Below are positions 969 to 10,748 of a stretch of DNA of 26,122 bases, piece after piece. This DNA is from a virus: positions 10,313 through 36,434 of IMG/VR virus record IMGVR_UViG_3300030430_003489. One strand, 5' to 3'. The translations under genes were made by a program, and so were the position numbers. Under the pieces are notes generated by a model. That model saw only the letters and a program-made list of their open reading frames with translations. It was not told the origin of the DNA and ran no database searches. Within the stretch, counting starts at the first letter, position 1. Each line of letters starts with the position of its first letter.

Positions 969-979
969 GCTGTTAGCCC

Positions 980-1043
980 GGGTCCGGTTGGGACACATAC
1001 CACTATACATTGAGGTCATCCTCAACGACACCTAGCCGGACCC
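980..1043 (+). terminator. Long stem-loop after ssb, possible terminator or attenuator
   Basis: 980-992 pairs with 1031-1043 over 13 contiguous base pairs: GGGTCCGG with CCGGACCC, then five more pairs including two G-U wobbles. Inside it, TTGAGG (1010-1015) pairs with CCTCAA (1020-1025) around a TCAT tetraloop. The outer stem is followed by ACTTTTC (1044-1050), a short T tract. It lies 12 bases after the ssb stop, the usual place for an intrinsic terminator. The loop is unusually long and the T tract is weak, so partial termination or a regulatory RNA fold is also possible. Confidence 0.45.
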
Positions 1044-1177: not shown

Positions 1178-1375
1178 ATGAATCAACCGTTCGACTCACA
1201 TGCAAAGCAGGAAGAGAGGCGAGCCATAAGGCTGGCCCTCTTCGCCATCGTGGCGATATTGATAAGCACCGCCGCGCTAACCTGTGACCCGGAAGAGCAT
1301 TGGAGCAGGCAGTATATTGACGACCACTGTGAGCGCTGCATACAGCAGGGCGAGCCGTGCTGCTTCTCCGACTAA
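1178..1375 (+). CDS. Small cysteine-rich membrane-anchored protein (65 aa), cistron upstream of mom
   Basis: The strong ribosome site GGGGGAGG (1168-1175) precedes the ATG. The N-terminus is basic (KQEERRAIR), followed by one hydrophobic segment LALFAIVAILISTAAL (about residues 19-34). This suggests an N-in anchor with an exported tail. The tail holds Cys36, Cys51, Cys54, Cys61 and Cys62 (CERC and PCC motifs), suited to disulfides or metal binding. The residues before Cys36 do not form a good lipobox. I do not recognise the family. Its position directly before mom recalls Mu Com, a small Cys zinc protein that activates mom translation, but the membrane segment argues against simple Com homology. 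The RNA of its last codons can pair with the mom start region. Confidence 0.65.
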   Translation: MNQPFDSHAKQEERRAIRLALFAIVAILISTAALTCDPEEHWSRQYIDDHCERCIQQGEPCCFSD

Positions 1376-1411
1376 CGCAACAAGGTTGACACAGGGGGGG
1401 GGCGGCATGGC
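1354..1411 (+). promoter_or_regulatory. RNA helix sequestering the mom ribosome-binding site and AUG
   Basis: 1354-1369 pairs continuously with 1396-1411 over 16 base pairs: 10 G-C, 1 A-U and 5 G-U. The 3' arm contains most of the G tract, GCGGC and the mom ATG (1407-1409). The 5' arm is the end of the 65-aa gene, including CTTCTCC. The stop codon of that gene (1373-1375) lies at the start of the 26-base loop, so a ribosome terminating there would cover and open the 5' arm. This is the layout expected for translational coupling: mom closed unless the upstream gene is translated. The pairing is seen in the sequence; the function is inferred. Confidence 0.6.
1394..1402 (+). repeat. G9 homopolymer inside the mom ribosome site
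   Basis: Nine consecutive G residues lie 5-13 bases upstream of the mom ATG and provide its only Shine-Dalgarno-like sequence. A tract this long is prone to length change by slippage. A change would alter ribosome-site strength and the pairing with the CTTCTCC tract, though not the reading frame from ATG 1407. It could also be a place where assembly or sequencing miscounts. Confidence 0.7.
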
Positions 1412-8672: not shown

Positions 8673-10748
8673 TTAAATATTTAGATCAATGGGCTCAAGC
8701 ACGCTGCCCTCTGCTTCAAGGTCTACGATCTCCGTCTCCAGATTGGAGATATCTTTTTCGAGTCTCTCTATTTTTCTTCGGTTTGAGGGATTGACTACGG
8801 TTTTCTTTAGCTCGTCCCGTTTCTGTTTAATTAAGGCTTCGCGCCCTCTTACCTTTGCAGCGTTTATGGCGGCCTTGTTTTGGGCCTTAGCGGCCTCGGA
8901 TTCGGCCTTAGCGCCCGCCGCCTTTTCGACTCTCGCGGTGACAGCTGTTGTTGCAGCCGGCTCAAACGATATTCGGTTCAGCACCTGGGCGGATGACTTG
9001 TATCCCCTGCCTTTGATGATTGCGTTGATTCTCCTCTGATTGAGACCTGCCTCTTCCAGCCTCCTGGAAAAAACGCCCTCAGATGCAATCGGTGACACAA
9101 GCTCGCCATCGTCACCGACGAACAGCGGCACCGAAGATTTAAGGCTGTCGAGCCGCCGCTTCTTTGCATCGGGGTCCTTTTCGCTGTTGGCCTTTGCGTA
9201 CTGGTCGAGATACTTACTGTACTGGTCTTCAATGGCCCTTTGCTTCTTACTTAGACCCCTTCTGATACGAAGATAGTCCTTGTTCTTCGATGCCTTCTCT
9301 TTGTCTTTTTTGATCTTAGCATCCAGCTCCTCTATCTGCTTACGGACCTTTGCGGCCTGTGCGCGAGACTTTTCTGCCGAGGCTCTACGGGACTCTATCC
9401 CAGACATGTCGGAGATCTCTTTACGCAGCTTGAGGTTCTTGAGCTTCTGCTCCTCTGTCAGCGGCTTCTTCCTGTTCTTCCCAAACTGCTTGATGATGTC
9501 ACTCTGAAGGGCCTTGACCGACTTGCCCGAAAGAAGGTCTGCAAACGTCGTTGGTGTTGCCTCCCTCTCCGCTGCGCGTAGCAGGCTCTGTAGCTGCTGC
9601 TCGTTCTCGGCAAAGCCCGATGCTGCAACGAGCTGGGCAGGGTCATACGTGTCAATGGCACGCTGTGACGTTATGCCGACATCTTCAAGCTTGGACAGGT
9701 CTGTTGCTGTGGGCCTGACCATAAGGGGCTGTGTTAGCTCTGGGCTGACGGTCATAGCAACATCTTGCGACATTGTAGGGGGCATCGACAGCCGAGCCAC
9801 GTCTAGTTCCATGGCATCCTGAGCAAGATCACCCTGTGTCATTATCCTCTGACCTATAGGCTTTTCGATGTCTGTTGGGTCACCGACAGGAGGAACCATC
9901 ATCTGCTGAGCAGGGCTCATTCTGCCGTATGCGTTCACGATTGCGTTGGCTCTTTGAACCTGCTCAGGCGTAAGACCGGCTCGAACACGCCTATCTCCCG
10001 CCGCCCTTACAACATCCTGAGTGAGTCCTACCTCGCCGAGCACATCCTCTGGCGCTGTTGCGCGTTGCATTGCCCTGATTTCCTCAAGCCTGTCGGCCCG
10101 TGCTCTTAAGGCGGCTTGCTGCATAGCGTCCTGCTTCCGAAACACCTCCCGTTCCTCTTGAAGCAAATCGCGCATCCTAGCGCGAGCTTGGATGAGATCG
10201 TTGGAGGCAGACCGCTCTTCGGGAGACATTTTACTCATGTCCGCAATCACGGAACTAGGCCCACTTCGGTCTCTCAGGCCTGCAAGTCTAGCCGCTGCAT
10301 CTTCTTCCGATACAAGCGCTCGGGAGGGCATGAGAGATCCTGACAAAGACTCTCCGAGTGTTGGCCCTGAGAGGCCTATGCTCTGAAGGAACTGCTGGGT
10401 TCCAGCGTCAGACGTGTCAGGCTCACGAAGCCTTGGCATTGACTCAAGGGCTTGTCCTGCCTCAGAAACGGCAGTGCCCACTTGCTCCTGCTGCTTAGCC
10501 CTGTCTTGCTCTAGCGCCTTGCGTGCCGCATTACGCTTTTTGTTGCGAACGGCCCTGTCGATACCGCCGCCAATCAGGGTGCCAAGATTAGCCGCCTGCT
10601 CAAACACCTTGATCCCACCTGAGATGGCGTCAAGGGTGTTGATAGCATCCTTGGTCTTGTCTCGACGAGCTGGACTGCGGCCTATGCCGGAAATCCTTGT
10701 TCTGCGGCGGCCAAAGATGTTGCCTGGAGATCTAACAATACGACCCAT
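8673..10748 (-). CDS. Internal virion protein with long coiled coils (691 aa)
   Basis: The start ATG is preceded by GGAGAA. The N-terminus is strongly basic (FGRRRTRISGIGRSPARR) and is followed by a Gly-rich amphipathic stretch (GGIKVFEQAANLGTLIGGG). Two long Lys/Glu coiled coils lie at about residues 450-530 and 605-685. The middle is Met/Gln/Asp-rich, for example YGRMSPAQQMMVPP. There are no enzyme motifs. Size, composition and position between a small Ala-rich protein and a 1375-aa protein suggest the middle ejection protein of a three-protein set like T7 gp14-15-16 or P22 gp7-20-16. No direct homology is claimed. Confidence 0.7.
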   Translation of the reverse strand: MGRIVRSPGNIFGRRRTRISGIGRSPARRDKTKDAINTLDAISGGIKVFEQAANLGTLIGGGIDRAVRNKKRNAARKALEQDRAKQQEQVGTAVSEAGQALESMPRLREPDTSDAGTQQFLQSIGLSGPTLGESLSGSLMPSRALVSEEDAAARLAGLRDRSGPSSVIADMSKMSPEERSASNDLIQARARMRDLLQEEREVFRKQDAMQQAALRARADRLEEIRAMQRATAPEDVLGEVGLTQDVVRAAGDRRVRAGLTPEQVQRANAIVNAYGRMSPAQQMMVPPVGDPTDIEKPIGQRIMTQGDLAQDAMELDVARLSMPPTMSQDVAMTVSPELTQPLMVRPTATDLSKLEDVGITSQRAIDTYDPAQLVAASGFAENEQQLQSLLRAAEREATPTTFADLLSGKSVKALQSDIIKQFGKNRKKPLTEEQKLKNLKLRKEISDMSGIESRRASAEKSRAQAAKVRKQIEELDAKIKKDKEKASKNKDYLRIRRGLSKKQRAIEDQYSKYLDQYAKANSEKDPDAKKRRLDSLKSSVPLFVGDDGELVSPIASEGVFSRRLEEAGLNQRRINAIIKGRGYKSSAQVLNRISFEPAATTAVTARVEKAAGAKAESEAAKAQNKAAINAAKVRGREALIKQKRDELKKTVVNPSNRRKIERLEKDISNLETEIVDLEAEGSVLEPIDLNI

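Follow-up and report, generated by a model that had tools for sequence, protein, structure and literature searches.

The mom gene of phage Mu is controlled by a stem that covers its start (established; PMC6483171), and coupling of neighbouring genes by RNA unfolding has precedents in E. coli rpmI-rplT (at +52 nt), phage f1 VII-IX and MS2 coat-lysis (PMC12548453). The locus described here, from an uncultured phage, can be set beside both. As in the translation inhibition structure (TIS) of Mu, the mom start codon falls within a predicted RNA stem beside a small upstream gene, and as in the three coupled pairs, the ribosome-binding site is occluded by the upstream frame, translation of which would, here by prediction, open it. 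The Mu stem has 8 pairs and costs 10.6 kcal/mol to open, whereas the same calculation gives 21.3 kcal/mol for the 16 pairs found here. Mu mom starts with GUG inside the com frame, while here the start is AUG and the 5' arm of the stem lies inside the upstream gene; the Mu stem is opened by Com binding to a neighbouring hairpin, but no Com homologue is present here. An earlier note on this DNA took the helix for an independent cis solution to the need that Mu meets with its stem-loop and Com. A predicted stem over the mom start is indeed present, but the product of the upstream gene belongs to none of the Com families of Pfam or PHROGs and probably has a membrane segment. With no Com and a different geometry, the resemblance to Mu is in effect and not in parts. 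The unfolding precedents involve genes other than the two considered here, and the spacing of +31 is comparable to the +52 of rpmI-rplT.

The window, i.e. the whole stretch of 26 122 nucleotides that was analysed, runs from base 10313 to the last base, 36434, of a virus record and contains portal, capsid and terminase genes. A ten-N run (L062, 10303-10312) immediately precedes the start of the window, which shows a scaffold gap in the record at that point. No Rfam family was matched in the window. Features of the locus are collected in Table 1.

Table 1. Features of the mom locus, in window positions.
Feature	Positions	Strand	Description	Remarks
65-aa gene	1178..1375	+	likely membrane segment, then Cys-rich tail	homologues in L011, L012
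5' arm of helix	1354..1369	+	last codons of 65-aa gene, (E)PCCFS	16 pairs, probability 0.94-1.00
TAA stop of 65-aa gene	1373..1375	+	31 nt before mom ATG	
Nine-G tract	1394..1402	+	likely Shine-Dalgarno site of mom	
3' arm of helix	1396..1411	+	G tract, CGGC, AUG, GC	
mom, DNA-modification protein family, 192 aa	1407..1985	+	PF25680, phrog_1384	

The downstream gene had already been called mom in the earlier note, and profile searches agree: its product matches Pfam Mom (E 7e-26, 91.5 bits against a cut-off of 27.1 bits) and the PHROG listed in Table 1 (E 7e-33). Homologues in other phages mostly start within a few residues of the 1407 start, and the core TYADESQGH is invariant in 10 Mom sequences. 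Judged by a profile score above the cut-off together with this conserved core, the product is a member of the Mom DNA-modification family. The notion of keeping a toxic enzyme off is borrowed from Mu by analogy, and is not evidence from this phage.

On sequence grounds the 65-aa gene is also real, since two related phages (L011 and L012) carry homologues (E 3e-9 and 2e-7) that share the invariant Cys pattern C..P..W..Y..C.RC..G.PCC. The protein has one membrane segment, judged likely by eye, and a tail of the form C..W..YI..CxRC...GEPCC; it had no Pfam match above the cut-off, no PHROG and no match in the phage collection. The relatedness of the two phages is seen in the adjoining phosphoesterase, which is 68% identical. 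In both, the 65-aa homologue is encoded on the other strand and immediately follows the phosphoesterase gene; in L011 its GTG start overlaps the phosphoesterase stop. The gene corresponds to L011 6137-6340 and to about 6110-6310 in L012. No mom was found in either record, both of which may be incomplete. Compared with these kin phages, then, the window has the 65-aa gene turned round with respect to its neighbours and placed ahead of a mom that is missing from the kin records.

These data bear on whether a trans-acting factor, either a protein like Com or a phage RNA, opens the stem in place of upstream translation. Mu provides the precedent (PMC6483171), and the 65-aa protein, small and Cys-rich like Com, could itself be the factor. 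Its lack of a Pfam or PHROG match to Com, its likely membrane segment and the position of its homologues in kin phages, beside another gene and with no mom found there, make this very improbable.

The earlier note described an uninterrupted 16-bp helix joining the end of the 65-aa gene to the mom start, and every pair was confirmed, as were the positions of the stop and of the ATG. From the outermost pair (1354-1411) to the innermost (1369-1396) all 16 are standard, five of them G·U, and in the predicted fold the 3' arm buries the G tract and the mom AUG (1407-1409). Folding of 1170-1450 against shuffled sequence, a check proposed in the same note, gave a minimum free energy structure that includes the helix, with a z-score of -2.13 and 4 of 200 shuffles as stable. 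The narrower segment 1340-1425 also contains the helix in its minimum free energy structure (-39.6 kcal/mol, z -4.35), and none of 200 shuffles was as stable. Pair probabilities in the helix were 0.94-1.00 whether the folded context was 390 or 1392 nt long, and the 86-nt segment from 1331 had the highest stability of the 5208 sampled from both strands. With loops of up to 150 nt, this is the longest unbroken helix of the + strand. Length by itself does not set it apart, though, since a 17-pair and a 16-pair helix occur on the - strand of the whole window. A DNA palindrome or the inverted repeat of an insertion was rejected as an explanation, since five of the pairs, being G·U, can form only in RNA of the mom sense, and the arms mismatch as DNA. 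We judge the predicted helix to be real, strong and probably regulatory, and presume that it forms in vivo.

A long G+C-rich hairpin between two genes could also call to mind an RNase III site, a pause or a terminator-like hairpin, acting on transcription or RNA stability and not as a translation switch. We find this scarcely credible here, as the helix covers the AUG itself, no T run follows the 3' arm and no terminator was called, the last two points having led us to reject an intrinsic terminator. Neither promoters nor terminators were called within 900-2100, so these calls give no evidence for a co-transcript of the 65-aa gene and mom; we assume that the two genes share one transcript.

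Two further hairpins lie nearby. One, just after ssb, is present in all three related phages (window 978-1043; L011 6343-6412; L012, reverse strand). In the window and in L011 it has about 13-14 pairs and encloses a smaller hairpin of 6 pairs; in L012 the inner part folds differently. By hand count, its outer stem has about three paired changes between the window and L011/L012; it could act as a terminator, or be an RNA or DNA element that has been conserved. The other, at 1055-1092 between ssb and the 65-aa gene, is a 12-pair inverted repeat (GAGCCCCAAGG...CCTTGGGGCTTC) whose loop is AT-rich; it folds at -22 kcal/mol and has no T tail.

To compare start sites, the cost of opening was computed for positions -15 to +5 around starts that were chosen by rule. 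The value for the window's mom was equalled by only 1 of 200 composition shuffles. It was the costliest of 21 starts in the window (21.3 kcal/mol against 14.8 for the next and a median of about 8) and the most closed of 36 mom genes, the other 35 ranging from 2.5 to 16.3 kcal/mol (rule-chosen starts again, with a few near-duplicate records). By prediction, then, the start is closed by pairing with the upstream frame, as the 5' arm lies inside that frame and no other start is as costly. The length of the G tract comes from one assembly; when lengths of 5-12 were modelled, the start stayed closed at every length, with an opening cost of 11-19 kcal/mol, and we therefore rejected an assembly error in tract length as the cause of closure. 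Slippage on the tract that would fuse the two frames was also rejected, because the 65-aa frame comes to its stop at 1373, short of the tract.

The reading we favour is that translation of the 65-aa gene opens the lock on mom, i.e. translational coupling by RNA unfolding, to which we assign a probability of roughly 0.55. On the transcript, the last codons of the 65-aa gene would pair with the ribosome-binding site and AUG of mom and so block its translation. A ribosome elongating over the codons of about 1325-1375, or terminating at 1373, would occupy the 5' arm, freeing the G tract and the AUG 31 nt downstream; a second ribosome, or the terminating 30S via short scanning, could then start mom. 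The output of mom would thus stay low and follow the translation of the 65-aa gene. Modelled in the longer context, with a ribosome footprint at the stop (1355-1386) the start costs 10.8 kcal/mol to open, against 18.0 without it, which is nearer to the other starts of the phage, and a ribosome placed 15 nt earlier gives 9.5 kcal/mol; the footprint is a hard-constraint approximation with an assumed end at ~1386, and leaves the mom site itself uncovered. That a ribosome finishing the 65-aa gene opens the helix, as the earlier note held, is consistent with the geometry and with this modelled drop, and has the standing of a calculation. Coupling of mom to the 65-aa gene is what these models suggest, and the locus may plausibly be added to the cases of this known mechanism, but is not a demonstrated mom-specific system.

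The same two genes in this order were found in no relative among viral contigs, bacterial genomes or the phage collection. The genes upstream of mom in L001-L009 differ from the 65-aa gene; the 26 records with a related capsid gene, many of them fragments, yielded no mom; viral_contigs contained no near copy of the mom start region, and genome_contigs gave one distant mom. A comparable helix was absent from the 35 other mom genes, whose longest start-covering helix has 5-10 pairs, and the mom genes of L022-L057, ICP1, PMBT8 and Darwin encode homologous Mom proteins but have no such helix. The helix is thus known from a single sequence, while regulation of this kind is already known. In about half of the mom homologues of L022-L057 (IMG/VR), an open frame of at least 60 codons ends a few bases from the mom start, often with a 4-base overlap; coupling may therefore be common for mom.

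How much of the pairing reflects selection depends on what the protein dictates. The striking item is the nine-G tract ahead of the mom AUG, by run count the sole G/C run longer than six in the window. The motif PCCFS is pyrimidine-rich by the genetic code (CCN UGY UGY UUY UCN) and either C or U can pair with the G tract, so that the complement of the tract is largely given by the sequence of the 65-aa protein. When the codons of both genes were recoded and the spacer shuffled, 16 pairs arose in none of 1000 trials and the energy was matched in four. With mom and the G tract kept and only the 65-aa gene recoded, at least 16 pairs arose in 145 of 1000 (14.5%), and the energy was reached in 22 (2.2%). 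The 5' arm, moreover, encodes GEPCC, a protein motif that also occurs in the kin phages without mom; the motif appears to constrain the arm, which counts against a tuned device.

Mom may thus have landed after a pyrimidine-rich gene end with an over-long G-rich Shine-Dalgarno tract, the strong pairing being unselected, perhaps lowering mom expression, but not a regulatory device. The GEPCC motif of the kin phages, the 14.5% of synonymous recodings and the lack of conservation of the helix in mom relatives all fit such a by-product, and we regard it as possible, if less probable than coupling. It accounts poorly for a helix energy attained in so few recodings, for a G tract that has no equal in the window, and for the most closed start of the phage, which would leave mom nearly silenced unless coupled.

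Translational coupling also invites a broader and more speculative proposal, which we think unlikely as it stands: that mom outside Mu evolves its own cis locks, and that here, once mom had been acquired, an inverted gene for an unrelated membrane protein had its end recruited as the lock, so that mom reports the translation of that gene without a Com-like factor. If coupling at this locus is true, there would be a second means of restraining a Mom enzyme, one that does without Com, and the locus, with its very strong lock, would be a clean test case for RNA-unfolding coupling at +31 nt. Such coupling would also suggest that unrelated phages need tight translational control of mom.
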